Source: Candidatus Zixiibacteriota bacterium (GTDB taxonomy: Bacteria; Zixibacteria; MSB-5A5; GN15; PGXB01). From it: a stretch of 64,000 nt of DNA. The stretch is taken from the NCBI GenBank assembly GCA_900498245.1, contig LS998015.1, positions 1,040,642 through 1,104,641 on the forward strand. Reading direction: 5' to 3'. The notes under the pieces were generated by a model. It saw nothing but the letters and a program-made list of their open reading frames with translations, did not search any database and was not told where the DNA came from. Made by a program: the position numbers and the translations under genes. This document shows positions 80-60,396 of the stretch, in pieces (position 1 is the first letter of the stretch; the number at the start of each line of letters is the position of its first letter).

Positions 80-889
80 TTCTTTTGAAAATACCATGAT
101 TAAAGCGGTTCCTTTAGGGTCATAGCTCTCATGGCCGTAACCCCCGAATAGTTCCCCGGTCGCGAACCCGCTCCGTTCGGCCATAGTCGTCATTTCCTCC
201 GGTCCGTATTCCTTTTCGGATATGCCAAACCAGCGAAAATCTCGTGTCACGGAGTTGATGGCGAAATCACGGACAGTTTTCACCCGTTCTTCGGCGAAGT
301 AATATTGCTCGCGATGAACCAGCGACTCCTGTTCGAAATAGAGGGGGCTTTTTTCCCTGTACCACATGGTTCGGTTGTGACGGTCTCCGTCTTCAAGCCG
401 CGACAGATGTATGATAAAAATGCCGTTTTCTTTCAGGGCCCGAAAAGCCAAGGTGAAAATTCTTTGATTGTCGGCAGGGGAGAAATGCCCCATCTGGCCG
501 CAAATCAAATACGCCAGATCGAATTCGTTTTGGAATGCAGTATTGAGGATGTTCTCACAATGTAAGTTGATCTGCAGATTTTTTGCACGGGCCCTTTCCC
601 CGGCGAGATCAATCGGATACGGACCGATATCTACCGCCGCTACTTCGTGACCCCTCTCTGCCAGGGCCAGGGCGTGGCGTCCGCCCCCGCAGGCCATATC
701 AAAAATTCTGGCGCCCGGTTTATTAATATATTGCTCCAGGAAAGAGATTTCAGTTTCAGTGGGAATGCCCCAGTCGTGCACCAGTTCATACAGCCGGCGG
801 GAAAAGGAATAATCATCATAGGGAAGAGTCCATTCAAAAGGAAATGGCCTTCCCAGTTGTACGTTTGGATCATGGTTCCGTGGTGTCAT
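68..889 (-). CDS. Class I SAM-dependent methyltransferase
   Basis: This 273-residue protein has a Rossmann-type SAM-binding core. Motif I is seen as F-D-M-A-C-G-G-G-R-H near residues 63-72, followed by an acidic strand end (A-A-V-D-I-G) that would bind the SAM ribose. The C-terminal half (H-R-E-Q-Y-Y-F and later the G-Y-G-H-E-S-Y-D segment) is typical of small-molecule methyltransferases whose substrate cannot be told from sequence. An AGGGG Shine-Dalgarno lies a few bases before the ATG. It is the last gene of a minus-strand series and is 126 bases downstream of the flavodoxin-like gene, so it may be co-transcribed. Substrate unknown. Confidence 0.85.
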   Translation of the reverse strand: MTPRNHDPNVQLGRPFPFEWTLPYDDYSFSRRLYELVHDWGIPTETEISFLEQYINKPGARIFDMACGGGRHALALAERGHEVAAVDIGPYPIDLAGERARAKNLQINLHCENILNTAFQNEFDLAYLICGQMGHFSPADNQRIFTLAFRALKENGIFIIHLSRLEDGDRHNRTMWYREKSPLYFEQESLVHREQYYFAEERVKTVRDFAINSVTRDFRWFGISEKEYGPEEMTTMAERSGFATGELFGGYGHESYDPKGTALIMVFSKESRN

Positions 890-1015
890 TATCCCCTTCG
901 TTTCCTTACCCTTCTGATTCGGAACACTTTTTCCGGCGTAAAGGAAAGGGGCACTGTAAATTGTTACGGTAAAAATAATTGTCAGGAATTTGACCGAATT
1001 ATGGGGAGATTCCCA

Positions 1016-1630
1016 TCAAATTTGTTCGGGCGAACCGGCTTTTGCGGCCAGTATTTTTCCCAGTTTGTATGCTTCATCCAATTTGGGGCGGTCACCTGCG
1101 ACCGGACCGATTTTGGTCCATTCGGACCCGGCATAAAATATCGCGCCGGAATTTATAATTTCCACCCATTTGAAAAAGCCGGCCACCACCTTCCGGGCGC
1201 ATTCAAATTCCCCCCGCTCGCCGCCGACCAGGACCATGGCGCCATATCTTTGGCGCGTGATTATCCTTTTGAAATGATGTCCCGATTTCCCTTCAAAATC
1301 GGGCGGGCGAAGGCAGTTGCAGCGATCGATAAACATTTTGGCCTGTGCCGACACCGAGTCGAAATAAACCGGCGAACCGAACAGTATGATGTCATATTTT
1401 ATCAGGCGCTCATAGACCGCATCGAGATCATCATGATAGAAACAGTATTCCGGCTCGGGACTTCTCCCGCAGGCCTGGCAGGGAATATAGCGGAGATCAT
1501 TCAATCGCGTCAATTCGGCGCGGCATTCCTGCCCCGCATTTTCCCGAACCCCCCGGACAATTTCCTCCAGGAGAATTTCGGTCGAACTTCCCTTAATCGG
1601 GCTGGCTGTCAGACTCAGTATATTCAGCAT
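1016..1630 (-). CDS. Flavodoxin-fold NAD(P)H-dependent FMN reductase
   Basis: The 204-residue protein begins with a beta strand followed by S-P-I-K-G-S-S-T-E, the phosphate-binding loop of the NADPH-dependent FMN reductase/iron-sulfur flavoprotein family. It continues with G-S-P-V-Y-F-D-S-V-S-A-Q-A-K-M-F-I-D-R, the second FMN-contacting segment. An internal C-Q-A-C pair near residues 52-55 and a further Cys are typical of the subgroup that carries extra cysteines. The likely role is a cytoplasmic FMN-dependent oxidoreductase of unknown electron acceptor. The gene start overlaps the end of the ABC-F gene by 38 bases, which argues for co-translation. Confidence 0.85.
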   Translation of the reverse strand: MLNILSLTASPIKGSSTEILLEEIVRGVRENAGQECRAELTRLNDLRYIPCQACGRSPEPEYCFYHDDLDAVYERLIKYDIILFGSPVYFDSVSAQAKMFIDRCNCLRPPDFEGKSGHHFKRIITRQRYGAMVLVGGERGEFECARKVVAGFFKWVEIINSGAIFYAGSEWTKIGPVAGDRPKLDEAYKLGKILAAKAGSPEQI

Positions 1631-3509
1631 CTAACTGCTTCAACTCCTCGAGGTGGTCGTATAATTTCAGCAGGATTTCTTCAATCCGTTCTTTTTCTTT
1701 ATGGGCCTCGGTCAATTTTTCCCAATCCGTTTTCGGAATATTATAGGTTATATCGTTTTCAAGGCGGTGCAATATCGTCTCGTGATCTTTTATCTTGGAG
1801 TCGGTGGAGCGAAGTTCCTTTTTAATTCTTCCCTTGGTCTGGGATAATTTCTTGAAATCGGCATACTGCCGGATTTTGTCCGGACTGGTCGGTTTTTTTT
1901 CCGGCCGAACCGTTTCCGCATCTTTCTTTTCCCTAAAATATGAATAATTCCCTTCATAGAGCCGCATGGCTCCGCCCTCTATCGACAGGATTCTCTGTGC
2001 CACCTTGTCAAGGAAATATCTGTCGTGACTGACCACCAGATAGGTCCCGCCGTAATTCAACAGCGCTTCTTCCAGCGCCTGGCGCGACTCGATATCCAGG
2101 TGATTCGTCGGTTCGTCGAAAATCAGAAAATTGGCCGGAAGGAACAGCAGTTTGGCCAGCGCCAGCTTGGTCTTTTCACCCCCGGACAAAACCACTACTT
2201 TCTTCAGTACATCTTCTCCCCGAAAGCCGAAGCGCGCCAGAAAGGTCCTTAATCGTCCCGCTTCCGTCATCGGATCAACCTGCCACAGTTCGTCTATGAC
2301 CGTGTTGTCATCATTGAGGTCAGAAAGTTCCTGGTCGAAATAGGCGATTTCGACTTTCTGACCCAGACTGACCGAACCTTCCAGTAAATCCAGTTCTCCC
2401 AGAATCGACCTGATGATGGTGGTCTTGCCGGACCCGTTGGCCCCGATCATTCCCGCTCGGTCGCCGCGGTACAGATTGAAGGAGACATCTCTGATCACGG
2501 CCCGATGTCCATACCCGAAATCGGCTTTCTCCGCCGCCAGGACCAGATTGAATGATCGCTCTCCGGAATCGACCCGGAACGAGACCTCCCGCCGCTCCTC
2601 AACCGGCAATTCGATTCTTTTAATGCGCGACAGATACTTCATTTTCGATTGGGCCTGCTTGGTCTTCTGACCCGCCATGTTGCGGCGGATAAAGTCTTCG
2701 ATCCGCTTTATCTCTTCCTGCTGGTGCTTGTACCAATGTTCGATCTGGGAATAACGATCTTTTCTTTCCGTCAGATATTTCTCAAAACCGTTGAAGTATT
2801 GCTCGATTTTTCGCCCGGTCAGTTCCCATACCTTATTTACGGTATTGTTCAGGAAAGTCCGATCGTGAGATACGATAATATATGCTTTATTGAGTCCTGA
2901 CAGATATTGCTCCAGCCAGATCGTGGAATCGATATCAAGATGATTGGTCGGTTCGTCCAGCAGCAGAAGCGTCCCCCGTCCGGCCAGTATCCGCGCCAGT
3001 GACGCCCGGTTCCTTTCGCCTCCGGAGAAACTGTCCATCCGGCTCCGAAAACGGAACTCCGCAAACCCCAGACCCATCAGAATGGCCTTTATTTCGGCTT
3101 CATATTCATAGCCGCCGGAAGTCTCGAAATGATGCTGGAGATCTCCCAGTTTTTCGAGAAGGGGTTTCGAATCGGGATTTTCCTCCAGGTCCTTTTCCAC
3201 CTGCCGGATTTCCGAGCGCATCGTGAGCAGGTCGCCGCGCGCCGCCGAGACGTAATCGAACAATGTACTCTCTTCGGATCCGGCAAATTCCTGCTCCAGA
3301 TAGGAAAGGGTGCAGTTTTTGGCTTTTGTGATTGCCCCCGAATCAGGCGTCAGGTGTCCCGCCATCAATTCAAACAGGGTCGTCTTGCCGATACCGTTGG
3401 GTCCGACCAGTCCGATTCTATCCGTATCGATTATGGAAAAAGAGAGGTCCCTGAAAATTTCCCGTCCGTCGAATTCTTTGCAGATATTTTCACCGGCCAG
3501 AAGGGTCAT
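1593..3509 (-). CDS. ABC-F family ATPase (Uup/YdiF type)
   Basis: The protein of 638 residues has two ABC ATPase domains and no membrane segments, as in ABC-F proteins that act on ribosomes. Walker A of domain 1 is G-P-N-G-I-G-K-T at residues 36-43, with signature S-G-G-E-R-N-R and Walker B L-L-L-L-D-E-P-T-N-H-L-D. Between the domains is the long charged linker typical of ABC-F. Domain 2 has G-A-N-G-S-G-K-T, L-S-G-G-E-K-T-K and F-D-E-P-T-N-H-L-D, followed by a C-terminal lysine-rich coiled coil. An open frame continues upstream of this start, but it lies inside the VWA gene in another frame. The ATG at 3507-3509 overlaps the VWA stop (ATGA), so it is preferred. Which member of the family (translation factor or antibiotic protection) cannot be told. 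Confidence 0.93.
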   Translation of the reverse strand: MTLLAGENICKEFDGREIFRDLSFSIIDTDRIGLVGPNGIGKTTLFELMAGHLTPDSGAITKAKNCTLSYLEQEFAGSEESTLFDYVSAARGDLLTMRSEIRQVEKDLEENPDSKPLLEKLGDLQHHFETSGGYEYEAEIKAILMGLGFAEFRFRSRMDSFSGGERNRASLARILAGRGTLLLLDEPTNHLDIDSTIWLEQYLSGLNKAYIIVSHDRTFLNNTVNKVWELTGRKIEQYFNGFEKYLTERKDRYSQIEHWYKHQQEEIKRIEDFIRRNMAGQKTKQAQSKMKYLSRIKRIELPVEERREVSFRVDSGERSFNLVLAAEKADFGYGHRAVIRDVSFNLYRGDRAGMIGANGSGKTTIIRSILGELDLLEGSVSLGQKVEIAYFDQELSDLNDDNTVIDELWQVDPMTEAGRLRTFLARFGFRGEDVLKKVVVLSGGEKTKLALAKLLFLPANFLIFDEPTNHLDIESRQALEEALLNYGGTYLVVSHDRYFLDKVAQRILSIEGGAMRLYEGNYSYFREKKDAETVRPEKKPTSPDKIRQYADFKKLSQTKGRIKKELRSTDSKIKDHETILHRLENDITYNIPKTDWEKLTEAHKEKERIEEILLKLYDHLEELKQLDAEYTESDSQPD

Positions 3510-20761: not shown

Positions 20762-20845
20762 GCCGCCGGACAATTGTAAAATGTGATAAACTCTCCCCGG
20801 CAAATTCCGTATATTCCGTTAGACGGATAATGGAAGGAGGGGAAT

Positions 20846-21859
20846 ATGACCTTATCGGATCTGGAGCATTTTAGAAATCTCCTGCTGGAGAGACAGGATA
20901 ATATCCAGCAGTGGATCGAAGCCGGCGCCGGAGGTACGACCGAATCTAAAGAAAAGGCCCAGGCGTTACTGGTCGAAATCAAAACCGCTCTGGGGCGGGT
21001 GGAACATCAGACGTATGGTGAATGCAAGGTTTGCCACGGCGAAGTGGAACGGCACCGCCTTGAGGTCCAGCCGACATCACAGGTATGTCTGGAGTGTATC
21101 AGCAAAGAGGAAAAGGCGCAACTGGAGGAAGAACTTTTCCTGGCCAGCAAGATTCATCGCGCCCTCCTGCCGCATGATATCGCCCGGATCGACGGTTTTG
21201 AGGTTGCCGTGAAGTCGCTGGCGGCGAGGACGGTCGGCGGCGACTATTTCGACTTTTTCCCTTCCGAAACCGATGGGCCGACCCGTGTTGTTATCGCCGA
21301 TGCCATGGGCAAAGGGCTTCCGGCCGGGCTTTTGATGTCCAACATTCAGGGAGCCCTCAAAATATTATCCGAGGAAATCGAATCGCCGAGTCAACTTATT
21401 ACCCGGCTGAATCGCTGGCTCTGCCATAATGTCCCCGTGACCAAATTCGTTTCGCTGGCCTGTGTGGCGATCGAATCCGAGGCTGATGATAGGAGCCGTA
21501 TCATTCAGGCCAACGCTGGTCATTGCCCGCCGGTTCTGGTCCGTCATAGCGGCGCAATCGAAAGACTTAATCCGACCGGCGGTGTTCTTGGGGTCCATGA
21601 CGCCTTCGACTATTGTGAAGAAACTCTCTATCTTGACCGTGGGGACCTCCTTCTGCTTTACACCGACGGTGTCACCGAGACCGAAAATGAATCCGGGGAG
21701 ATGTTCGATGAATCGCGGATGATTGAGTTTCTGAAGGCCAATCATTCCATGCTATCGCTGGAAGCACTCCTGGCCGGTCTGTACGATGAAGTTATGAAAT
21801 TCTCCGGCCATAAGGACTTGCAGGACGATTTCACGATAATCGCAGTCAGGAAGCAGTAA
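20846..21859 (+). CDS. DksA/TraR-type zinc finger fused to SpoIIE/RsbU phosphatase
   Basis: The 337-residue protein has two parts. Residues 1-90 form a helical segment and a four-cysteine finger, Cys60-x2-Cys63-x17-Cys81-x2-Cys84, the same spacing as in DksA. Residues 95-337 are a PP2C-type SpoIIE/RsbU phosphatase: G-G-D-Y-F-D-F-F, A-D-A-M-G-K-G-L-P-A, A-N-A-G-H-C-P-P, L-L-Y-T-D-G-V-T-E and L-Q-D-D-F-T supply the metal-binding acids. Phosphatases of this class usually dephosphorylate anti-sigma-antagonist proteins in partner-switching pathways. No antisigma or STAS gene is near. GGAGGGG lies just before the start. The fusion is unusual (see findings). Confidence 0.88.
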   Translation: MTLSDLEHFRNLLLERQDNIQQWIEAGAGGTTESKEKAQALLVEIKTALGRVEHQTYGECKVCHGEVERHRLEVQPTSQVCLECISKEEKAQLEEELFLASKIHRALLPHDIARIDGFEVAVKSLAARTVGGDYFDFFPSETDGPTRVVIADAMGKGLPAGLLMSNIQGALKILSEEIESPSQLITRLNRWLCHNVPVTKFVSLACVAIESEADDRSRIIQANAGHCPPVLVRHSGAIERLNPTGGVLGVHDAFDYCEETLYLDRGDLLLLYTDGVTETENESGEMFDESRMIEFLKANHSMLSLEALLAGLYDEVMKFSGHKDLQDDFTIIAVRKQ

Positions 21860-22074: not shown

Positions 22075-25000
22075 ATGCAATCATCGCTAATGGCGCGTGC
22101 AGGAATATTACTCGTCTGCGCCTTAATAATTATCCCGATAATGCCTAGTTCGGCCGGTGCCCAAACGCCACCGACCACGGGCTCTCTATCTATCGTCGGC
22201 CGGACAATCGGCCCCTTCGCCGTGAAAAGCATCGACAATAAACAGAATGTCCTTTCCGTCGAACTGACCCGGGATAAAATCAATGATCTCATGACCGGCC
22301 CGGCTGAAAGAGATATGGAACTCCCGCTTAATACCGGCCGGACGGTGGTTCTGAATCTGAAGCGATTCGATATCATCACCCCCGAAACCAAATTCTATCT
22401 GGGACGGGTTGGGGGCGACATTGAAACCGCTCCACCGCAATTCACCGCTTTTCGCGGTACTATCGACGGGCAACCCAATTCCCACGCCTTTCTCGCAATT
22501 GGCGGGGACGGCTCGGCCAATGGCCGTTTTACTCTGGCCGACGGCGAGACATATTACGTTTCCACCGTCAATGCGAAAGTAAACGGCGGGCAGATTTTAA
22601 TTCACAATAAGGCCCCCGAGATCGAACTCCCCGACGGCGTTGAGTTCTGCAAATATGAGCCGTATCCCGATACCAATCAAATCAAAACCAAGGGAATGGC
22701 GGCAAAATTGAGCCAGGGGTATCGGCTCGCCGCCATGGCCATCGACGGCGACAAAGCCTATTACGATATCTTCGGGAATATCGGCGCGGCCCAGACCTAC
22801 GCCCTGGCGGTGCTGGCCGAGGTCAGCGATATCTATATGCGGGACGTCAACACCAAAATCATTGTCCGCTATATGCGGGTCTGGGATCAGGGCGGCGAGC
22901 CGTTCAGCGCTTCGAGTCTGAATGGTTTTCGCAGTTACTGGATATATAGTCAAGATCCTACACCGTACAACTATATCTATATGTTCAGCGCCAAGCGCGA
23001 TCTATCTTATGGCGGAGTTTCATATGTCGGCGGCACCTGCAGCGGCGAGGGAACCTATGGCATAATTGGCTTCATGAATGGCAATTTCCCCAATCCGTTC
23101 GGTGCCCCCGATCTCAGCAACTGGGATGTGGAATGCACCGCCCATGAAATGGGTCATGCCAGCGGAAGTTATCATACCTGGGACTATGTTCCCCCCATAG
23201 ATCAATGCTACAGCGGCGTGCCGATGCGGGGCACCATCATGAGTTATTGCCACGTTCATGCCGGATATATGACCAATATCGATTTAATCCTGCATCGGCG
23301 GGTCGAAGAAGTTATCAATTGGAATTTCGACGCCGGCGGCTGTTTCCCTTTTGACTGCAACGGCAACGATATTTCCGACGCCGTTGATATCGCCACCGGC
23401 TTCAGCGCCGATGTCAATCATGACGGCATCCCCGATGAATGTCAGGACTGCAATCATAATGGGATTCTGGACCCGGTCGATATCGCGCAGGGTGCTCCCG
23501 ATATAAACGGCAATGGCATTCCCGATGGCTGTGAACCTGATTGCAACGGTAACGGCCTGCCGGATGACTATGATATCAGTTACGGCATTAGCAGTGACGA
23601 TAACGGCAACGATGTTCCTGATGAATGTGACCCTGACTGCAATGGCAATGGGATCGCCGATTTCGCCGATGTGGCCGCGGGAACGGTCGAGGATTTCGAT
23701 CGCAACAATATCCCCGACGAGTGCCAGGATTGTGACGCCAATGGTGTCAGTGATTGGCGCGATCTCGGGCGTCAGTACAATCTCTTTACCGCGGACCTCG
23801 ACGGCTTTGTGCATGAATTTCATCAGGCTAGCGGTTACCCTATTGCTCTGCACCCCTTCCTGCCGATTTCGGCCCCGTATGATATCACGGTCGGGAGCGA
23901 CCGGATGCTTTATGTAGCCGACGGGTCCGCCAATGCCATCCGCAAAGTAGATCCCTCTACCGACCAGTCTTCCTATTTCGTCACTGCCGGAAGCGGTGGC
24001 CTGAACAATCCGACCGCCCTTGTTTTCGGTCCCAACGGCAATCTCTTTGTCGCCAGCGCCGGCAATAGCAGTGTTATTGAGTATGACGGCGCCACCGGGG
24101 CTGTCATCGGGACATTTGTCCCCTCTGGTGCGGGGGGACTTACCGCACCGTTCGGTTTGACTTTTGGTCCCAACGGCAATCTGTTTATCACCAGCAGCGA
24201 CAACCGGGTCTATCAGTTTGATGGAACCAGCATAGGAGTCTTCGTCTCAGCCGGGAGCGGCGGACTGTCATCCCCCCGCGGGCTCGCTTTCAATACCGAC
24301 GGTAATCTTCTGGTCAGCAGTTACGGCAACAGTCAGATCATGATGTACTCCGGCGCGACCGGGGCTTTCATTAGAGTCTTTAATGATGTTTCCAATCCCT
24401 CCTTTCCGTGGGGAATCAAAATCGGGCCGAACGGCGATGTTTTTGTCACCGAAAACAGCAACACGTCGATGCGCGCCAGGGTTTTGGAATATTTCCCCGA
24501 CGGTCGTTTTCGCCGCCGCTATGTTCGCGGCGAAAACAGCGGCTTGAGCAGTCCCACCGGGCTGACCTTTATGCCGGCATCGCCTCTCGATCTCAACCGC
24601 AACGGTATTCTCGATGCCTGTGATATCTCCTCCGGATACTCGCAGGATATTAATACCAATGGTATTCCCGATGAATGCGAGGGTCCCGACGCCGACAGCG
24701 ACGGCATCGCCGATGGCATCGACAATTGCCCCACGGCGCCCAATCCGGAGCAGTTTGATATGGATTTCGATCATATTGGCGACGCCTGCGATAATTGCGT
24801 TTTCGTGGTCAATCCCGGTCAGGCCGATAGTGATGGCGATGGTTATGGTGACGCCTGCGATAACTGCCCTTCGGTGGCCAATCCCCTCCAAACCGACACC
24901 GATGCCGATTTAATCGGCGACGCCTGCGACAATTGCCCTTCCGTTTATAATCCCGATCAGAAAGACACTGACGCTGACGGAATCGGCGATCTCTGCGACA

Positions 25001-25278
25001 ATTGTCCCAACATCTATAATCCAACGCAACTGGATACTAACCATAACGGTATCGGGGATGCCTGTGAATACATCTGCGGCGACGCCAACGGCAATGGCGG
25101 TGTCAATATCCTCGACGTGTCATTCATTATCAATTACCTTTATAAGAGCGGTCCGGCGCCCGATCCGCTTCGGATTGCCGATGTCAATAATTCGGGAACG
25201 GTCAATATTCTGGATGTCTCTTATTTGATCAATAATATTTATAAGGGAGGTCCCGGACTAAACTGTCCCATCGAGTAA
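22075..25278 (+). CDS. Large secreted metallopeptidase with NHL, TSP3 and dockerin regions
   Basis: The 1067-residue protein has a signal peptide of about 25 residues. A reprolysin-like M12 zinc peptidase domain runs to about 420, with zinc motif H-E-M-G-H-x2-G-x2-H at His357, His361 and His367 and a later S-Y-C methionine-turn-like region. Next come five or six calcium-loop repeats of the D-x-N-x-N-G-I-P-D-E-C type (about 425-570) and an NHL-like propeller (about 575-840) with F-G-P-N-G-N-L-F-V repeats. Further D-x-D-x-D-G thrombospondin-3 units lie at about 870-990. A tandem dockerin closes the protein ([11 protein letters not shown] and [10 protein letters not shown]). It is probably an exported, calcium-dependent surface protease. 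A terminator-like hairpin follows the stop. Confidence 0.88.
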
Positions 25279-29548: not shown

Positions 29549-30859
29549 ATGGAACAAGATATATTCTATAAAATATTGAACGACCACAAGGAATTGTCCT
29601 CACTTCCGCAGATCATGGCGGAAGTTTTAAAAATTTCTTCCAATCCCGATTCTTCCGCATCGGATCTGGCCGCGGTCATCATGAAAGATCCCACCCTGAC
29701 CGCCAAAATGCTGCGCGTCGTCAATTCCCCGTACTACGGACGCATCCAGAAAGTGACCACCGTCAATCAAGCCGTGGTTACCCTGGGACAGCGCACCGTG
29801 GCCGCCATTGCCCTTTCAACCTCCGTTTATAATGCCGTCAATAAAGTTGACTCCTCAATCGATCGCCGACGCTTCTGGCGGCATTCGCTGGAAGTCGCCA
29901 TCGCCGCCCGCTTGATCGCCGAGACAATTGAACATGCCCAGGCCGAAGAGGCCTTCGTGGCCGGATTGCTCCATGAAATCGGGACTCTCGTAATGGAAGC
30001 ATCTTTCCCGGCCGATTTCAAACGGGTCTGGAAATTGATAGAAGCCGGGGAAAGTCAGGCCGCCCTTGAAGAACGGACCTGGGGGACCAATCATGCCCGG
30101 GTAGGACAGTTTCTTCTGGAACAGTGGGGCGTCCCCAAAATTCTCGGCGATGCCGTGGGGAACCATCATCAGATTTATAATCAGGGAGAAAGGGCCCCCG
30201 AAAATATATTAGCCCAAATCGTCAATCTGGCCAACCAGATCTCCAAGTTTCGGGTCTATAATATGCCCCCTCCGGAATCGAAACAGCTCGAAAACAAGGA
30301 TATCATTGCCTCCAATCTGGGCCTGACCAACGCGGCCCTGGCCAAAATCGAAGAGAATCTGATTGGCGAAGTGATAAAAGAATCCGGTTATCTGGAGATG
30401 GAAATCGGCAGTTTGGATGAAATCCTCTCCGAAGCCAACCATCTTCTCTACAAGCAGTATCTGATGGTGGAAAATCTTCTCCGCGAGAATCGGATCATGC
30501 AGCAACAGATCGCCCGCGACCAGATGAAGAAGGCCGCCCTTGAATCCCTCAAGGCTATCGCCGCCACTTTCAGCCATTATATCAATAACGCCACCGCCGC
30601 CATTCTGGGCCGGGCCCAGCTCCTGGAACTGGCCATCACCCGGGGCGAAATCACCGATCCTAAAGGGATCGCCGCCCTCTCTTCACGCACCATTGTTGAG
30701 GGCGTCGAGACCATCTCGACCATCCTCGAAGAGTTGAAAAAAATGACCACTTTCGAGACCACCCTTTATCATGATGATACTTACATCATCGACGTAGAAA
30801 CGAAAATCCGCAAGCAGCTCAACGATCTTGCCAATGTGAAAATTTCCGTCGGCTCCTGA
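29549..30859 (+). CDS. HDOD signalling protein with HisKA-like tail
   Basis: The 436-residue protein has an HDOD domain at about 15-215 (L-P-Q-I-M-A-E-V-L, M-L-R-V-V-N-S-P-Y-Y, A-G-L-L-H-E-I-G and V-G-N-H-H). A linker and a coiled coil follow to about 325. The rest resembles a histidine-kinase dimerisation helix pair: F-S-H-Y-I-N-N-A-T-A-A-I-L-G-R-A-Q-L-L with His343 at the phosphorylation position. No ATP-binding HATPase domain follows; the protein ends about 60 residues later. HDOD proteins act in signalling networks that often involve cyclic-di-GMP. It follows the nuclease gene by 59 bases. Confidence 0.85.
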   Translation: MEQDIFYKILNDHKELSSLPQIMAEVLKISSNPDSSASDLAAVIMKDPTLTAKMLRVVNSPYYGRIQKVTTVNQAVVTLGQRTVAAIALSTSVYNAVNKVDSSIDRRRFWRHSLEVAIAARLIAETIEHAQAEEAFVAGLLHEIGTLVMEASFPADFKRVWKLIEAGESQAALEERTWGTNHARVGQFLLEQWGVPKILGDAVGNHHQIYNQGERAPENILAQIVNLANQISKFRVYNMPPPESKQLENKDIIASNLGLTNAALAKIEENLIGEVIKESGYLEMEIGSLDEILSEANHLLYKQYLMVENLLRENRIMQQQIARDQMKKAALESLKAIAATFSHYINNATAAILGRAQLLELAITRGEITDPKGIAALSSRTIVEGVETISTILEELKKMTTFETTLYHDDTYIIDVETKIRKQLNDLANVKISVGS

Positions 30860-34007: not shown

Positions 34008-34032
34008 AATGCGACGAGGAGGGAGGCCGGAG

Positions 34033-36282
34033 ATGAGACGCTATTTTCTATGCGGGGCTATTTTATCGGCATTTATGACAGGCAATTTTTCCCTGGGGCA
34101 GGTGCCTCTCGGGACCTTACCGTTTTGGCAGACCAGTGAAAAAAATCTCTATTCCACCGGGATGATCTGGCGCGATGCCAACAACGACGGCTATATCGAT
34201 GTCTTCTATTCCAACGGTAACGATATGGCTCTGGCTCGGAACATGATCTATCTTTCCCATTACGGAACCATGCCAATAGCGGCCACATGGTTTTCATCCG
34301 ATGCCAGTTATTCCGGGCACTGTGCCGTCAGCGATATCGATGACAACGCCTTTCCCGATTTCGCCGTTTCCAATTATATCGGCCCCGGAGGATTTTCCAC
34401 CCAGACCAGATCGAATGCTTATTTGAATATGAACGGACTGCCCCACGCCTCACCCGATTGGTATACCGCCGACAGTCTCTATACGTTTTCTAATGCTTTC
34501 GGCGATGCCGATGGCGATGGCCGTCTCGATCTGGCCCTGGCCACCGGCGAAGGGTATAATGCTGTCAAGCAGAGGGACCGGATTTATCTCAATGTCGGCG
34601 GGGCCCTGCAGACCGTTCCCGGATGGCAATCGACCGCGGCCACCGAGGCGATGGATGTCACCTGGGGCGATGTCGATAACGACGGCGACCTGGATCTGGC
34701 ATTTTGTTATAATGACCGCCCTCCACAATTGTACTATAACGATGTCGGGATTATTCTAAGCACCCCTTCTTGGGAAGCCGCTGACAGCGAGCCGGCCAAC
34801 ACCCTGATTCTTGGCGATGTCTCGGGCGACGGCTGGCTGGACCTGATTGTTGCCTTCAATAATCAACTTGGCGGGACCGGCAAATATCGGGTCTATTTCA
34901 ATGATGGGTCAGGGCATCTTGGCTATACCGCCGGCTGGGAATCGGCCGACGGCGGCTATGGTTCGGCGATTTCTCTTTATGATTATGATAATGACGGTGA
35001 CGATGATCTGGCGGCGGGAAGATGGTGGGACGCCCCCCGGATTTACGAAAACACCGGCGGGACCTTCACCACCAGCCCCGTCTGGCGGGCCGACAATTCT
35101 ACCGTGGTCGAAGAAATGGCCTGGGTCGATATCGACGGCGACGGTGTCGAAATGTGTACCGATACCTTAAATAGCGTAAGCGGTAAAAAAGTCTTCTATA
35201 CCAGACATCACCCGCTGTTTTCGATAGATTCGGTCGTGGTGGACGGGAGCACTCTCCCTGCCAATGAGTATTGCTTTGATCTTATTTCCGGGTGGGTGTC
35301 TCTGGCGCAAATCCCGCTTGATCAGGTTGTCATATTCTATCAATATTCTTTCAAGAACGATCTGACCACATCCAACTGGGATACCTATAACATGGCCTAT
35401 GGGAATACTAATCGCCCCCTGGTCGATTTCTATGCCGATGTTACGCTCGGCCGCGTTCCCTTCATGGTCAATTTCAGCGACAGTTCTCTCGGGGTAATAA
35501 ATCGGCTCTGGCATTTTGGCGATGGCGGGACGGCATCGCTTCCCCATCCCTCGCATATTTATAATACCGGAGGCGCGTTCGATGTCACTCTAAACAATAC
35601 GCTGGCGGACGGACCCCATAATCGAACCCGCAAAAAGATGATTATTGCTCTGGCCGACACTGTTATTTTCCCTGATAAAGCCTTCACTTACACGGAAACG
35701 ATAAAGATTCCGATTTATCTCAGAAACAGCCAACCCCTGCACAGTTTTATACTGCCGATAAAATTCAGCGGCTCGCTCAATCTTGAATATGCCAGCCATG
35801 ACACCGATTCTTGTCGCACCAGTTATTTCGATCAGGTCGATCTGATAAATTACAGCCCCGATGAGCAGGCCTATGTCTTTGTCTTCACGCCGAAAGTCAC
35901 CGGCAATAATCCCGATCTGCCGCCGGGATACGGGCGGATTTTGAATCTCTACCTGACGCGAATCGCGGGAAGCGGAACCAATACTATCGACACGACCACT
36001 TTTTCAGGCAAAGCCCTGAGTTACAATGCCGATTATGTCACTTTTCAACCGGCTGTGAAACAGGGGCAAATTACGATTGGTGATTTCATGCGCGGTGACG
36101 CCAACGGCGATGGATTTATAAACATACTCGATGTATCTTTCATCATCAATTATCTCTACAAGGGCGGACCGGCCCCGCTTCTGATTCAGGGTGACGCCAA
36201 CAGCAATGGGTCCATCAATATTCTCGATGTCTCATACTTGATAAACTATCTCTACAAGGGGGGCCCACCGCCGGGACCATGA
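34033..36282 (+). CDS. Secreted FG-GAP/PKD protein with cohesin-like domain and tandem dockerin
   Basis: The start at 34033 follows a strong AGGAGGGAGG site; an earlier in-frame ATG at 34009 sits directly after the preceding gene. The 749-residue protein has a signal peptide, then FG-GAP/VCBS-type repeats with calcium loops (D-A-N-N-D-G-Y-I-D, D-A-D-G-D-G-R-L-D, D-V-D-N-D-G-D-L-D). A PKD-like domain (F-G-D-G-G-T-A-S) follows. Next is a segment of about 130 residues with I-P-I-Y-L-R-N-S-Q-P-L-H-S-F that looks cohesin-like, and finally a tandem dockerin ([11 protein letters not shown], then [11 protein letters not shown]). It is exported. It ends one base before the convergent CPBP gene. Confidence 0.82.
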   Translation: MRRYFLCGAILSAFMTGNFSLGQVPLGTLPFWQTSEKNLYSTGMIWRDANNDGYIDVFYSNGNDMALARNMIYLSHYGTMPIAATWFSSDASYSGHCAVSDIDDNAFPDFAVSNYIGPGGFSTQTRSNAYLNMNGLPHASPDWYTADSLYTFSNAFGDADGDGRLDLALATGEGYNAVKQRDRIYLNVGGALQTVPGWQSTAATEAMDVTWGDVDNDGDLDLAFCYNDRPPQLYYNDVGIILSTPSWEAADSEPANTLILGDVSGDGWLDLIVAFNNQLGGTGKYRVYFNDGSGHLGYTAGWESADGGYGSAISLYDYDNDGDDDLAAGRWWDAPRIYENTGGTFTTSPVWRADNSTVVEEMAWVDIDGDGVEMCTDTLNSVSGKKVFYTRHHPLFSIDSVVVDGSTLPANEYCFDLISGWVSLAQIPLDQVVIFYQYSFKNDLTTSNWDTYNMAYGNTNRPLVDFYADVTLGRVPFMVNFSDSSLGVINRLWHFGDGGTASLPHPSHIYNTGGAFDVTLNNTLADGPHNRTRKKMIIALADTVIFPDKAFTYTETIKIPIYLRNSQPLHSFILPIKFSGSLNLEYASHDTDSCRTSYFDQVDLINYSPDEQAYVFVFTPKVTGNNPDLPPGYGRILNLYLTRIAGSGTNTIDTTTFSGKALSYNADYVTFQPAVKQGQITIGDFMRGDANGDGFINILDVSFIINYLYKGGPAPLLIQGDANSNGSINILDVSYLINYLYKGGPPPGP

Positions 36283-38265: not shown

Positions 38266-38775
38266 ATGCCGTCGCGAATTTCCTATCAAAGTTGGGTCGA
38301 TGACCCCGATCCCAAGAGCGATTTTCCCCTTAAGACCGATGAAACCGAAAATATCGAGTCACCGCGAACCAGGCGAGTAAAAAAATGGGTCAACAGGGCC
38401 CTGGATAAATTGACACCGCTCGAACGGGAAGTCGTGGTCCAGCATTATTTGAATGGCCGGTCGCTTTATGATATCTCCCTTGACCTGGAACGAGAACCGT
38501 TACAGATTGTCAATGTTCGGCGCCGGGCGGTCCTTAAACTCAAGAAAAATCTGGCCATTTTCGTGCGGCGGGAATTTGTCCTGAAAGAGATGATTATACC
38601 GAAATGTATTCTCTGCAATTCGCCCCGCCGCGCCGAAATCGATACTCTTATCCGGGCCAAGCGCAAAGAAGAAACCTGGCGTCGGATAATCGGGAAACTT
38701 AAATCGGAGTACGGCATCAAAATCACAACCCCCCAGGTTTTAATCGGGCACCAAAAATATCATATGGAGGATTAA
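38266..38775 (+). CDS. Sigma-70 region-4-like protein with CxxC/HxxxH tail
   Basis: The 169-residue protein has a helix-turn-helix like sigma-70 region 4 at about residues 45-95 (K-L-T-P-L-E-R-E-V-V-V-Q-H-Y, then S-L-Y-D-I-S-L-D-L). The C-terminal part has Cys114-x2-Cys117 (C-I-L-C), a helical segment with R-A-E-I-D-T-L-I, and His162-x3-His166 at the end (G-H-Q-K-Y-H). That resembles a small zinc-binding HTH domain. Sigma regions 2 and 3 are absent, so it is not a full sigma factor. AAGGAG precedes the start. It is followed 4 bases later by a ribbon-helix-helix gene and then lpxC. Confidence 0.75.
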   Translation: MPSRISYQSWVDDPDPKSDFPLKTDETENIESPRTRRVKKWVNRALDKLTPLEREVVVQHYLNGRSLYDISLDLEREPLQIVNVRRRAVLKLKKNLAIFVRREFVLKEMIIPKCILCNSPRRAEIDTLIRAKRKEETWRRIIGKLKSEYGIKITTPQVLIGHQKYHMED

Positions 38776-39058: not shown

Positions 39059-39087
39059 TTGAAAACATAGTTAACAATTTGTATAAT
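39059..39087 (+). promoter_or_regulatory. lpxC operon promoter
   Basis: TTGAAA (39059-39064), 17 bases, then a perfect TATAAT (39082-39087). The transcript would begin about 39094, only about 12 bases before the ATG at 39106. Confidence 0.7.
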
Positions 39088-39105
39088 CCCGTCCTAACGG
39101 AACAT

Positions 39106-40497
39106 ATGTATACGAAACAGAGAACGATTAAGCGCCCGATCTCCATCGAGGGTATCGGGCTCCATACCGGCAACGGTAGTATTCTCACTTTCCGGCCGGC
39201 GCCGCCTGACAGCGGCGTGAAATTTATTCGGACCGACCTTCCGGGAAAGCCGTCTGTCATGGCCGATATCGATCATGTTATCGATATCTCGCGCGGGACC
39301 ACCCTCGGAAACGGCGAGGCCAAAGTATATACGGTCGAGCACGTGCTGGCGGCCATCGCCGGACTTCAAATCGACAATCTCGATATCGAAGTCAATGCCA
39401 ATGAACCGCCGGTTGTCGATGGTTCCTCGCGGCCGTTTGCCGACAAACTGCTCGAAGCCGAAATCGAAACTCAGGATGCCGATCGCTATTATCTGGAAAT
39501 CGATACCACCCTCTCTTATTCCGAGCCGGATCGGCATGTTGATATCGTCGTGACCCCATCCGATCGCTTCCGCATCACTTTCATGATTGATTACCGCAAC
39601 CCGGCGCTGGGCACCCAGTACACCACCCTGATTGACCTGGAATCGGAATTTGTCGAGGAATTCGCCCCGGCAAGGACCTTTTGTTTCCTTTCGGAAGTTG
39701 AAATGCTCAAAAATCAGGGATTGATTAAAGGCGGCGGTCTCAATAACGCCGTCGTCATTTACGATTCCGATCTGGGGCAGGTGGAGGTTGACCGGATCCG
39801 CAACGCCTTGAATCTCAAAGACGAGGCCTTTGTCGGCAAGACGGGGATCATCAATGATATTCCTCTCCGTTTTTACAATGAGCCGGTGCGCCACAAAGCG
39901 CTGGACCTCATCGGCGACCTCTTTTTAATCGGGGTTCCGATAAAGGGGCATATCCTCGCGGCCCGTTCCGGACATAAAGCCAATGTGGAACTGGTTAAAA
40001 AAATTCGCGCCCTCTACGAGAAGAAGAAATTATTGAGCAAATATCAAAAGTCTAATCAGGAACCGTTCCTCGATATCGACGGCATCATGAAGATAATGCC
40101 GCATCGCTATCCGTTTCTCCTGATTGACAAAGTTATCGAACTCGAACCGGAAAAGCGGGTGGTTGCGATTAAAAATGTGACCATCAACGAGCCGTTTTTC
40201 CAGGGGCATTTTCCGGGCCGTCCGATTATGCCGGGAGTGCTGATAATCGAAGCCATGGCGCAGGCCGGCGGGATTCTACTATTGAAAGCCGTGCCCGAGC
40301 CGGAAAAAAAATTGGTTTATTTTCTTTCGATTGACGGTGTCAAATTCCGCCGGCCCGTCAAGCCGGGAGATACGATACGATTTGAACTCGATATGAAAGC
40401 TTTCCGCCGCAATACATGTAAAATGACCGGAAAAGGATTCGTGGATGATACCCTGGTGGTGGAGGCCGAACTTATGGCCATGGTGATGGACCGATGA
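39106..40497 (+). CDS. lpxC-fabZ: Bifunctional UDP-3-O-acyl-GlcNAc deacetylase / 3-hydroxyacyl-ACP dehydratase
   Basis: The 463-residue protein fuses two enzymes. LpxC (about 1-310) removes the acetyl group in the committed step of lipid A synthesis. Its zinc ligands are His79, His263 and Asp267 (E-H-V-L-A-A and R-H-K-A-L-D). FabZ (about 325-463) dehydrates 3-hydroxyacyl-ACP. Its catalytic pair is His368 in G-H-F-P-G and Glu382 in L-I-I-E-A-M-A-Q. The fusion is known from Bacteroidetes, Chlorobi and relatives, so it supports an FCB origin. An open frame begins at an upstream TTG, but that overlaps the -10 box, so the ATG at 39106 is used. lpxA follows with a 4-base overlap. Confidence 0.97.
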
Positions 40498-50035: not shown

Positions 50036-53000
50036 ATGATAAGATCTGAGATATCAGTGGTCCCATACGGCAAGGACTTCCCAACTCTTCTTAATACCTA
50101 TCTCTCTCAAATTAGAGAAGCAATAAGCCTAAAAAAGCACCACGATCAAAGAAGAAGCCTGTTTATCGATTTTATAAGAAAAGCTTATTCTGTTGATCCG
50201 ACTGAAATTCAGCTCGAGGACAAGGTAAAAGTAGCTGAAGTTAGGGGTTATATCGACGCCCTTTATAAATATGTTATTTTCGAGTTTAAAACCGATATGG
50301 AGGCTGAAAGGCCTGCCGCATTGCATGAGCTACGCATTTATTTCGAAGCCCAGAAGAAGGCCGATGAATATTTGGCTGTAGTTACAGATGGCTTGATATT
50401 TGAATTGTATCAATATGAGAAAAAAAAGATTTCTTTTATTTCCAAATTTGCTTTGTCTGAAAATGATTTGATTGCTTCATATAGGGCGCTTGATGATATT
50501 ATTTTTGTTCTGAAAAAGACTACCCCCCGAGCAATGGATATCACTACACGATTTGGACCTGGAAGCGCCGTTTTCAGCAAATCGAGAGTTGCGCTGGAAG
50601 GTATATTGGAGAAGGTGGCTGCACATCCTGCTGTCAAAATTAAATTCAGTGAGTGGAACAATTTACTTGCAAAGGTATATGGTGAACCCATCGGGGACAA
50701 TCAGCTATTTATAAAGCATACTTATTTAACGATGTTCACCAGACTTTTAGTTCTGAATGCAATTTTCCCCAAGGTTACTAAATCAGCCACCATATTTAGG
50801 GGACTATTAACGGGCGATTTCTTTTCCAAGCACAACCTGCAAAATTTGGTAGAGCCGGATTTCTTCAGTTGGGCAATGGATACAGAAATTGAAGAGGATT
50901 TTGTAAATTTTCTTTCCAGCCTTGATCAATATTTGAAACCCTTTAAGCTGGATGAGATAGACGAAGATATTTTGAAGGAAATATACCAAGATTTGGTTGA
51001 CCCAACCAGTAGGCATTCCCTGGGTGAATATTATACCCCTGATTGGATTGCCGACATTGCTTTAACAACACTTAATTATCGAAGTGGCACCGTGTTAGAC
51101 CCCGCGTGTGGCTCAGGTACATTCCTTCTTGCGGTCATAAGAAAATATCGGAAAATGGGATTGAGCGGCAAAAAATTGGCTATCAAAGCCTTGAACTCAA
51201 TTATGGGTATTGATGTACACCCGGTTGCAGTAATGATGTCTAAGGCCAATATTCTGCTTGGCTTAGCTAAAGAAATAAGGTCGACCAAAACAGATATATA
51301 TCTGCCGGTTTATATGTCGGACACCCTTATGACGGCGGAAGACAGAAAAGCAAAGGCAATAGCAATTGATGTATTCGATAATTATAAATTCCTTATTCCT
51401 TTTTCTGTGCTCGATGGAAAAGCGCATCTCAGTGAGATTATTGACGATCTCGCCGCCGCAAGCCGCAGGGCTGCTGCAGATGAAAAGAGCTTGAAAGGCG
51501 CTCTAAAGGGATTCTGGGCAAAACATCGCAATCAATTGCATGAAGAGGAAGAGTGGCGGTGGAGGAACAATTTTAATTTGATGGTGCAACTCATAAGGGA
51601 AAACCGCGATACTATTTGGTCATTTATATTAAAGAATGCTTACCGCCCGGCGTTTATAAGATTAAGCAAAGTTGATTATGTGGTGGGTAACCCGCCGTGG
51701 CTGGCTTACAGGTATATTAAGGATAAAACATATAAAAAGAGGGTCAAAGACCTGAGCTTGGATCACAATTTACTGGGAAAAGAGGATGTCAAGCTATTTA
51801 CGCAGATGGATACAAGTACTCTTTTCTTTGTTCATTGTGAAAAAGAGTTTTTGAAACCCAGGGGCAGGATAGCTTTTGTGCTGCCCAAAACGACCATTTT
51901 ACCCGCAAAACAGCATTTGAAATTTCAGAAGAGGGGCTTAACGGAAATACACGATTTTTCACGTGTCGCGCCTCTTTTCAATGTTCGTTCAATTTTGGCA
52001 ATTCGCGATTCTCATTCAAAATCTACTAAAGCGGTGAAGACATACTTATATGAGGGCACATTGCCTTCGAAGAATCTTCGTTGGACCGATGCCAGTAAAA
52101 TATTGGCACGCAAGAAGACAACTCAAAAATTTCTATTCAATGAAAATCATGCTTCGTACTATTATCCATTATTTCAGCAGGGAGCGACAATAGTGCCTCG
52201 GTGCTTTTGGTTTATCCAAAAAGACGAAAATGCTGCGCTCCATAAAGATTATGTTAATATTGAATCAAGTGACGAAGCATTAGTCGAGGCAAAAGAACCG
52301 TGGCGACAGCGATTGGAAGGCCGTGTAGAAAAGCGTTTTATTTTTGAAACTGTTTTGGCGAAAGGTATTTTACCCTTTGCTATATATCGAGTTGAACCAT
52401 TATTTCTGCCCCTTATTAAACAAAGGACATCTTTTCATGTTGCGGATTCTAATGTTTTAATGGAAAATGGCTATCAATATGCATGTCTTTATATGGATAA
52501 AAGCGAGAAATTTTGGATAAAACATCGCAAATCCGACGATAGATCCTTGTTACAACGTCTAAATTATAACCAGACTCTTTCAAAGCAAGATATTGATGCT
52601 CCCTATGCTGTCTTATATAACACTTCTGGAACCAATGTGGCGGCGGCTCTATATGCAAAGGAAGATCATCCATACGCCGGTTTGAGGGCACAAGGATTTA
52701 TTGCTGATGCCAAGACTTATTATTATTATCCTAAAACAATAGATGAAGGTCTGTACCTTGTTGCAATACTAAACTCGGATATTATTAATCTTGCCATTAA
52801 GGACTATCAACCGCAAGGTTTATATGGAGAACGCGATATTCATCGCAGGCCCTTTGAAATATGCACTATTCCACGATTTAACGCCAAGAACAAAATTCAT
52901 GCGAACTTAGCTAGTATTGCAGAGCGATGTCAGATAGATATTAAATCTTATTTGCCTCATCTTAATGGCCGGCTTGGTCAGATTCGTCTGGACGTCAGAA

Positions 53001-53140
53001 AAATACTTGTAGACCATATTAGCAATATAAACAAGTTGGTTGAAAAGCTCCTTACTGAATCCGGTCAAAATTCTGAAAAGCTTATAAGCTCTAGTCGTTA
53101 CGGCAAGAACGGCGACCTATTTAACAAAGACGACGACTAA
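50036..53140 (+). CDS. Type IIG-like restriction-modification enzyme (nuclease plus N6-adenine methyltransferase)
   Basis: The 1034-residue protein has an N-terminal PD-(D/E)xK-like nuclease segment (Asp74, Glu83 and Lys85 in Y-I-D-A-L-Y and I-F-E-F-K). A methyltransferase core follows with motif I D-P-A-C-G-S-G-T-F-L near residue 355 and the adenine-binding N-P-P-W near residue 552. The C-terminal 350 residues would hold target recognition and are unlike known families by eye. Single-chain enzymes of this type both methylate and cut DNA. Codons and base composition are clearly more AT-rich than the neighbours, so it was probably acquired recently. It is flanked by palindromic repeats and has no separate specificity or helper gene. 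PglX-like BREX methylases are an alternative, but no BREX genes adjoin it. Confidence 0.82.
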   Translation: MIRSEISVVPYGKDFPTLLNTYLSQIREAISLKKHHDQRRSLFIDFIRKAYSVDPTEIQLEDKVKVAEVRGYIDALYKYVIFEFKTDMEAERPAALHELRIYFEAQKKADEYLAVVTDGLIFELYQYEKKKISFISKFALSENDLIASYRALDDIIFVLKKTTPRAMDITTRFGPGSAVFSKSRVALEGILEKVAAHPAVKIKFSEWNNLLAKVYGEPIGDNQLFIKHTYLTMFTRLLVLNAIFPKVTKSATIFRGLLTGDFFSKHNLQNLVEPDFFSWAMDTEIEEDFVNFLSSLDQYLKPFKLDEIDEDILKEIYQDLVDPTSRHSLGEYYTPDWIADIALTTLNYRSGTVLDPACGSGTFLLAVIRKYRKMGLSGKKLAIKALNSIMGIDVHPVAVMMSKANILLGLAKEIRSTKTDIYLPVYMSDTLMTAEDRKAKAIAIDVFDNYKFLIPFSVLDGKAHLSEIIDDLAAASRRAAADEKSLKGALKGFWAKHRNQLHEEEEWRWRNNFNLMVQLIRENRDTIWSFILKNAYRPAFIRLSKVDYVVGNPPWLAYRYIKDKTYKKRVKDLSLDHNLLGKEDVKLFTQMDTSTLFFVHCEKEFLKPRGRIAFVLPKTTILPAKQHLKFQKRGLTEIHDFSRVAPLFNVRSILAIRDSHSKSTKAVKTYLYEGTLPSKNLRWTDASKILARKKTTQKFLFNENHASYYYPLFQQGATIVPRCFWFIQKDENAALHKDYVNIESSDEALVEAKEPWRQRLEGRVEKRFIFETVLAKGILPFAIYRVEPLFLPLIKQRTSFHVADSNVLMENGYQYACLYMDKSEKFWIKHRKSDDRSLLQRLNYNQTLSKQDIDAPYAVLYNTSGTNVAAALYAKEDHPYAGLRAQGFIADAKTYYYYPKTIDEGLYLVAILNSDIINLAIKDYQPQGLYGERDIHRRPFEICTIPRFNAKNKIHANLASIAERCQIDIKSYLPHLNGRLGQIRLDVRKILVDHISNINKLVEKLLTESGQNSEKLISSSRYGKNGDLFNKDDD

Positions 53141-54652: not shown

Positions 54653-55537
54653 ATGAGAACCCTTCTCCTGTTTGCCGCCGCCTTGCTGACCTTGCTTATG
54701 GTGTTTGGATGCAGCGAGACGCCGCAAATCACCAATTCCAGCGATTCGAGCAATCTGGGACCGCTGGTCCAGCGCCCGGAATTTATCGATCTCCGGCCGC
54801 AGAGCACGATCGCTAATTTCACTATGAAGCCGACGGCCCCGATTTCGGCCGCCGACAAGAAACCGTCACCGCCCCCCGATACCGGCGGCGCCGACCCGAA
54901 CCCCAATCCGGCCCACAAGTATGTTTATATCGTGGGTATTTCGGATTATGAAGGGACGGCCAATGATCTGAATTATTGCGATGATGACGCGCAGGATATG
55001 AAGGCCTATTATCAGTCGCAGGGCTTCACGATCCGTATGGATGTCGATCGCAACGCCACCGCCGATGCGGTTCAGGCCGGTTTGGAATGGCTGGTTGCAT
55101 CGGCCGTTCCCGGCGATGAAATCGCCTTCGCCTATTCCGGTCACGGCGCCAAGGCCCCGACCTACGGGTCCAGTTTAATCTCAACCGATTTGTACTATCT
55201 CACCCACGGCTGGGTGATGCAGTTCATCAACGCCGCCAATTGCACCAAGAAAAATGTCACTTTCGATGCCTGCGAAGCGGGCGATTTTCTTGCCGATTGC
55301 CAGACCGGCATGGTTCTGGCGACGGCCTCTACGAGCGGTTATTCCTATGATGCCCCCGACCTCCAAAACGGCGCCTGGACTTATTATTGGATTTATGGTG
55401 TTACAAGTGCCGGTAAGATTTATGCCGAAGATGCCGCCACTTATGCTGAGACCGGAATGAAAGCGTGGGCCAAGGTCAATCACCTTCGTGTTTCCCCCTC
55501 GCATACGGATATGTATACCGGCTCTCTCGATATGTAA
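54653..55537 (+). CDS. Caspase-like (peptidase C14) lipoprotein
   Basis: The 294-residue protein has a lipoprotein signal ending L-M-V-F-G-C at Cys20. A proline-rich linker runs to about residue 88, then a caspase-fold domain starts at Y-V-Y-I-V-G-I-S-D-Y. The catalytic pair is seen as His164 in Y-S-G-H-G-A and Cys207 in F-D-A-C-E-A-G-D. Metacaspases and prokaryotic C14 peptidases share this H-G and D-x-C arrangement. A membrane-anchored caspase facing the periplasm is less usual than cytoplasmic ones. GAGGTG precedes the start and a strong terminator follows. No partner gene is adjacent. Confidence 0.85.
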   Translation: MRTLLLFAAALLTLLMVFGCSETPQITNSSDSSNLGPLVQRPEFIDLRPQSTIANFTMKPTAPISAADKKPSPPPDTGGADPNPNPAHKYVYIVGISDYEGTANDLNYCDDDAQDMKAYYQSQGFTIRMDVDRNATADAVQAGLEWLVASAVPGDEIAFAYSGHGAKAPTYGSSLISTDLYYLTHGWVMQFINAANCTKKNVTFDACEAGDFLADCQTGMVLATASTSGYSYDAPDLQNGAWTYYWIYGVTSAGKIYAEDAATYAETGMKAWAKVNHLRVSPSHTDMYTGSLDM

Positions 55538-60007: not shown

Positions 60008-60396
60008 CTCAAACTAATCGACAACCGCAATTATTGCGCTTGACACAATTTGTACTCCCCGGTATATTTTAATTGAACGTTGAAAGGATTTAGAACCTGG
60101 AATTTTGATAATTGCCCGAAATATTCCCCACCTTACGGGCATATCTTCTTGTTTGCTGCTAAGCGCCTCTACTACAATGTCTTCCGGTATTATTTGGTCC
60201 GCCAAAAATGCGCTAAAAATGCTTTTCAGGGAAGGAATTTGAGCCGGGCGGCGCAACTTATTTTGAAAGAGTTCGATAATAATTAATGATAGGGTCAATC
60301 GGCCCCGGAGATTGATTTTAACGGACGATGGCCCGATTGCATGAAGGAAAAATAAACGCTTTAACTATTGCTGACCAGCAGCAGAAAGGAATCAAC
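60008..60396 (+). other. Intergenic leader region
   Basis: A gap of 389 bases. It holds the promoter at 60040-60068 and a leader of about 320 bases to the next start. A small TTG-started frame (60080-60286) has no ribosome site and is not supported as a gene. Confidence 0.5.
60040..60068 (+). promoter_or_regulatory. Promoter candidate sharing CCCGGTATATT with 30946
   Basis: TTGACA (60040-60045), 17 bases ending in CCCCGG, then TATATT (60063-60068). The CCCGGTATATT stretch equals that at 30963-30973. The leader to the next start at 60397 would be about 320 bases. Confidence 0.6.

Follow-up and report, generated by a model that had tools for sequence, protein, structure and literature searches.

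A DksA-like zinc-finger head fused to an RsbU/SpoIIE-type phosphatase in Candidatus Zixiibacteriota and several other phyla

The gene and its two domains

This analysis concerns a gene at 20846-21859 on the plus strand of a 64,000-nucleotide window from a Candidatus Zixiibacteriota bacterium (contig LS998015.1, positions 1,040,642 to 1,104,641). The open reading frame (ORF) starts with ATG and encodes a protein of 337 amino acids in which a DksA-like head is followed by a PP2C/SpoIIE phosphatase. A strong Shine-Dalgarno sequence, AAGGAGG, was read at 20834-20840 on the same strand, with the ATG 5 nt further on. Promoter and terminator scans gave no signal above chance level. All parts of the gene are on the plus strand. 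The head opens with two hairpin helices, residues 3-25 (20852-20920; AlphaFold2 model m04bd1c57e7fb) and 32-53 (20939-21004), separated by a tip of residues 26-31 (20921-20938). The zinc finger (residues 56-86, 21011-21103) comes next. A linker helix (residues 87-107, 21104-21166), placed from the model, structure matches and conservation, leads to the phosphatase domain (residues 110-337, 21173-21856), which was delimited by Pfam, alignment and structure matches.

A first-pass annotation had reported a four-cysteine (C4) finger with the DksA spacing CxxC-x17-CxxC standing directly before a complete PP2C-type domain, and both observations held. The spacing is exact, Cys60-x2-Cys63-x17-Cys81-x2-Cys84 (residues 60-84), and Pfam zf-dskA_traR matched residues 56-89 with 27.9 bits (gathering score 24.9). 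SpoIIE matched residues 143-335 with 154.7 bits (cut-off 25). The NCBIfam model DksA_like matched residues 36-91 (5.5e-12) with 46 bits, below its equivalog cut-off of 105. The NCBIfam DksA models reach into the second hairpin helix (residues 34-91) with scores far under the equivalog cut-offs.

The candidate metal-site aspartates of the PP2C domain are D152, D274 and D327/D328, and a GGDYFDFF motif holds D133 and D136. D133, D136, D152, D274 and G275 are invariant in all 46 distinct fusion homologues gathered, and D327/D328 are present in 44 of the 44 that cover those positions. The full-length model had a mean predicted local distance difference test score (pLDDT) of 89.2. Its top structural matches were SiaA (Z 28.9), the RsbU domain of Rv1364c, RssB and SpoIIE (Z 28.9-22). 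The SiaA and RssB alignments begin at model residue 85-88, so the linker is covered as well. These results support the phosphatase half as a true RsbU/SpoIIE-type PPM phosphatase with intact motifs. The fusion of a DksA/TraR-type finger with an intact PP2C/SpoIIE domain in this ORF is confirmed as real. It is not a product of chance, because the architecture recurs in the 46 homologues, three finger cysteines are invariant among them and the N-terminal fold matches DksA best.

Fold, conservation and distribution of the head

AlphaFold2, given 29 homologues, modelled the head (residues 1-111) with a mean pLDDT of 88.5. The model is a helical hairpin (3-25, 32-53) followed by the finger, after which come a short helix and then the linker helix. 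The eight top Foldseek matches all belonged to the DksA family, with E < 0.001 for the first six. In a structure comparison the DksA chains scored Z 11.7-9.4 and the next unrelated chain Z 7.2. Helix matches this small can be unspecific, but the DksA chains are nonetheless set apart, consistent with the sequence profile. Model residues 1-98 align on E. coli DksA 32-151. When a profile of the head alignment was searched against 249 sampled genomes of the class of one relative (L011), stand-alone DksA-like frames were the next best matches after the fusions (E 5.5e-11 and weaker). The relationship of the finger to DksA was thus upheld, and the homology is predicted to span all of residues 1-98, beyond the finger alone. 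In the full-length model helix 87-107 is unbroken. It starts with turns equivalent to the DksA C-terminal helix and carries on as the linker, which aligns in RssB too, so that the DksA helix passes directly into the phosphatase linker.

Conservation is uneven along the head. Over the 46 members the tip of the hairpin varies most, with a mean column entropy of 2.94 bits. The hairpin helices have 2.1-2.2 bits and the finger has 1.53, and the linker, at 1.32 bits, is the best-conserved stretch of the N-terminal half. No column of the tip is conserved at 80%, and an acidic motif of the DxxDxA type is lacking. In TraR the tip carries such a functional motif (PMC9239242), and E. coli DksA has the acidic residue D74 there (PMC7461557). 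The distance from the initial Met to the first Cys is 58-68 residues in the fusions, compared to 75-90 in seven stand-alone DksA-like proteins, and the hairpin is about 10-30 residues shorter.

DksA binds guanosine tetraphosphate (ppGpp) through R91, K98, R129 and K139 (PMC7676912). These positions were read from an ungapped alignment to 1tjl. R91, R129 and K139 have no equivalent in any of the 46 fusions, and K98 is found in four. Arg occupies the R125 position of DksA in the window protein and in 25 of the 46 members. The only stand-alone DksA-like protein in the genome of the window (L095, 1246-1626; G000:C1 234283-234387) has a full-length hairpin. It also lacks equivalents of E. coli K98 and R129, which makes the ppGpp-site test weak on its own.

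The zinc ligands differ among members. Three cysteines are invariant in 46/46, with the pattern CxxC-x17-CxxH in 26 and C4 in the window protein and 19 others. Pfam detected the finger in just three of the 29 loci with this architecture found in a contig scan, because the fourth ligand is His in most members. Counts made by Pfam finger matches therefore miss most of the family, and Pfam annotation would give plain SpoIIE phosphatases. The record labels of the fusion-bearing loci were Zixibacteria, FCB group, KSB1, Calditrichaceae (Calditrichota), Chlorobi/Ignavibacteriae, Bacteroidetes, Aminicenantes and Anaerolineae/Chloroflexi. Of 132 genomes in the phylum of the window, 25 (~20%) have a full-length match above 340 bits, well separated from the other PP2C proteins, which score below 280 bits. 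In one further genome of the phylum the match is truncated by a run of N. Of the 249 genomes sampled from the class of L011, three or four have the fusion. Among the matches listed from these 249 genomes, the head occurred only in frames of about 350 amino acids (the fusions) or in short stand-alone DksA-like frames, and no other output domain was found behind it.

The first-pass annotation had taken the architecture to be uncommon. That has to be tempered for its occurrence, which extends to about a fifth of the genomes of its own phylum and to several others, but no published description of the combination was found in the open-access literature. As far as we could find, it is a widespread and apparently undescribed family.

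A tree of 105 phosphatase domains, for which a root was not inferred, placed the 46 fusions together on one side of a single branch (support 100/96). This placement fits a single fusion event followed by spread. The fusion clade splits into the C4 proteins around the window protein and a second group with a His fourth ligand, except in L006. A second, divergent set of DksA-head and PP2C proteins was also seen (L127-L130, in G099, G106, G101 and G182), with a hairpin shorter still and the motif GPVSGDYCD. L130 has Asp (CLGD) at the position of the fourth ligand. This set may be a sister of the main family (branch support 62/75).

Partner genes and other genes of the window

A survey for STAS and anti-sigma genes elsewhere in the genome, as proposed in the first pass, found both types. 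The genome contains six STAS matches and at least four good RsbW-like matches, mostly adjoining other PP2C genes, of which there are eight. Two STAS genes of interest encode proteins of 111-112 amino acids (2375743-2376051 and 3051017-3051328 of the genome), and the gene of an RsbW-like kinase lies at 2376187-2376561. STAS proteins were found in all 17 fusion-bearing genomes tested. Two of the 17 have a single STAS protein only, and several PP2C genes each.

Neighbour clustering over the 29 loci gave lineage-specific neighbours only, with no conserved neighbourhood. A first phmmer scan of fusion neighbourhoods for STAS and RsbW gave no matches. Scans with hidden Markov models and a positive control over about 50 neighbourhoods found STAS at two loci only (G003 and L007) and RsbW at G003 only. 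In G003 the fusion gene (693-1703, minus strand) is transcribed away from an operon of STAS (1923-2261), RsbW (2285-2710) and a 740-amino-acid PP2C protein, with 219 bp between them. This operon is most like the operon at 2375743-2378828 in the genome of the window, with identities of 59, 56 and 38-42%. In L007, a Calditrichaceae relative, one gene separates the fusion from a STAS gene (2791-3132) upstream of it. The STAS proteins of G003 and L007 had their best matches in the same two STAS proteins of the genome of the window. With about 50 neighbourhoods inspected and one adjacent operon found, the G003 arrangement is weak evidence and is best treated as a lead.

Other genes of the window were also recorded. 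Three large secreted-looking proteins (22075-25278, 34009-36282 and 60328-62517) have C-terminal dockerin-like repeats (GDANxNGxxNILDVSxxINYxYK), and the first additionally contains thrombospondin type 3 repeats and a reprolysin-like protease. An HDOD domain protein (29549-30859) has a C-terminal stretch resembling a histidine-kinase dimerisation helix (SHYINNATAAILGRAQLLE) with no ATPase match. The 169-amino-acid protein at 38266-38775 has a sub-threshold sigma-70 region 4-like helix-turn-helix (residues 41-75) and then a CxxC-containing C-terminal part; the domain scan gave no further domain. One ORF at 39079-40497 joins LpxC to a FabA/FabZ-like dehydratase domain. An Eco57I-like N6 DNA methylase of 1034 amino acids (50036-53140) is possibly a single-gene restriction-modification protein. 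A caspase-like (Peptidase_C14) protein of 294 amino acids at 54653-55537 looks secreted.

Candidate mechanism and comparison with known systems

The protein is probably a soluble PPM phosphatase of the RsbU type, in which dephosphorylation of a STAS protein is controlled by signals passing from the DksA-derived head through the linker. RsbU is activated when a bound partner turns its flexible linker into an ordered coiled coil and the phosphatase dimerises, and linker activation of this kind has been proposed for PPM phosphatases that carry other sensor domains (PMC12143880). The anatomy of the window protein fits this scheme with the DksA core as the sensor domain. Signalling from head to phosphatase is favoured because conservation is strongest in the finger and the linker and weakest at the tip of the hairpin. 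The truncated DksA core of short helical hairpin and zinc finger would act as an N-terminal sensor or partner-binding module, and the DksA C-terminal helix would now form the start of the helical linker feeding the phosphatase switch. A change at the head, either a bound partner protein or the zinc or redox state of the finger, would order or disorder the linker. By analogy with RsbU, ordering of the linker would dimerise the PP2C domains, and dephosphorylation of a phospho-Ser STAS anti-sigma antagonist would thereby be switched on or off. The most likely type of substrate is the STAS protein encoded at the two genes of interest.

Computation shows the architecture, the predicted fold, the intact motifs and common descent of the phosphatase domains, and the presence of STAS and RsbW genes. 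The dimer and linker mechanism is drawn from the analogy with RsbU, and the STAS substrate and the nature of the signal are likewise inferred. Several points weigh against this reading. The gene is solitary in the window and in most relatives, a STAS gene lies nearby in only two of about 50 loci, and the fusion-operon adjacency in G003 could be chance. Substrates other than STAS are possible, and the eight other PP2C genes are present in the same genome.

Oxidation might free zinc from the finger and so switch the phosphatase, a variant of the linker reading that names the signal. DksA has been reported as an oxidant sensor through its cysteines (PMC4815678), and three finger cysteines are invariant in the family. 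A purely structural finger would equally keep them invariant, and a His fourth ligand in 26 of 46 members resembles an ordinary structural zinc site, so zinc or thiol redox sensing is a possible but doubtful signal. It is unlikely that the head is a passive scaffold that merely dimerises a constitutively active phosphatase controlled by expression or substrate. The small single-gene system with no conserved partner genes close by would suit a scaffold, but the finger and linker are strongly conserved relative to the rest of the head, and the linker-type PPM phosphatases studied to date are regulated (PMC12143880).

Sensing or binding of RNA polymerase by the protein, which the first-pass annotation had suggested, was not borne out. 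As a tether the head would dock at the rim of the secondary channel, bringing the phosphatase to the polymerase or letting it sense the enzyme. The DksA homology and fold are true, and globular-domain arginines of TraR contact the rim helices (PMC9239242), which gives the Arg at the R125 position some relevance. Against this, the hairpin is shortened with an unconserved tip, the C-terminal helix of the DksA core is incorporated into the linker and the ppGpp-site residues are missing (K98 in 42 of 46), although K98 and R129 are a weak test in this phylum. C4 finger proteins also do not all function like DksA (PMC9239242). Such a tether is very unlikely, and the analysis gives no support for a DksA acting on polymerase. 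Since the tip is free to drift, the ppGpp site is lost and the finger and linker are kept, the parts facing the polymerase appear to have been dropped or released from constraint and those that would couple to the phosphatase retained. It is likewise very unlikely that the globular part docks on the rim and that the protein informs a sigma-factor partner switch directly of polymerase occupancy or of the state of the stringent response.

The window protein resembles the PPM phosphatases (SpoIIE, PF07228) of the RsbU, RsbP, SiaA and RssB type in its intact PP2C motifs, helical linker and N-terminal regulatory domain, and in the STAS and RsbW genes of its genome. The inputs described so far for partner-switching PPM phosphatases are PAS, GAF, receiver, HAMP and RsbU domains. 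The regulatory domain here is DksA-derived and is neither one of the first four nor an RsbU four-helix domain. If the linker reading is correct, a DksA core joined directly to the linker helix would add a new sensor module to this set, with an RNA polymerase factor recruited to phospho-signalling. The family permits a direct test of a DksA-like fold as a sensor without polymerase. The head shares with DksA/TraR (PF01258) the fold of hairpin, zinc finger and C-terminal helix, and CxxC-x17-CxxC is kept in most fusion members of the phylum of the window. It differs from DksA/TraR in its truncated hairpin without tip motif or ppGpp-site residues, in the His fourth ligand of the second group and in a C-terminal helix extended into the phosphatase linker.
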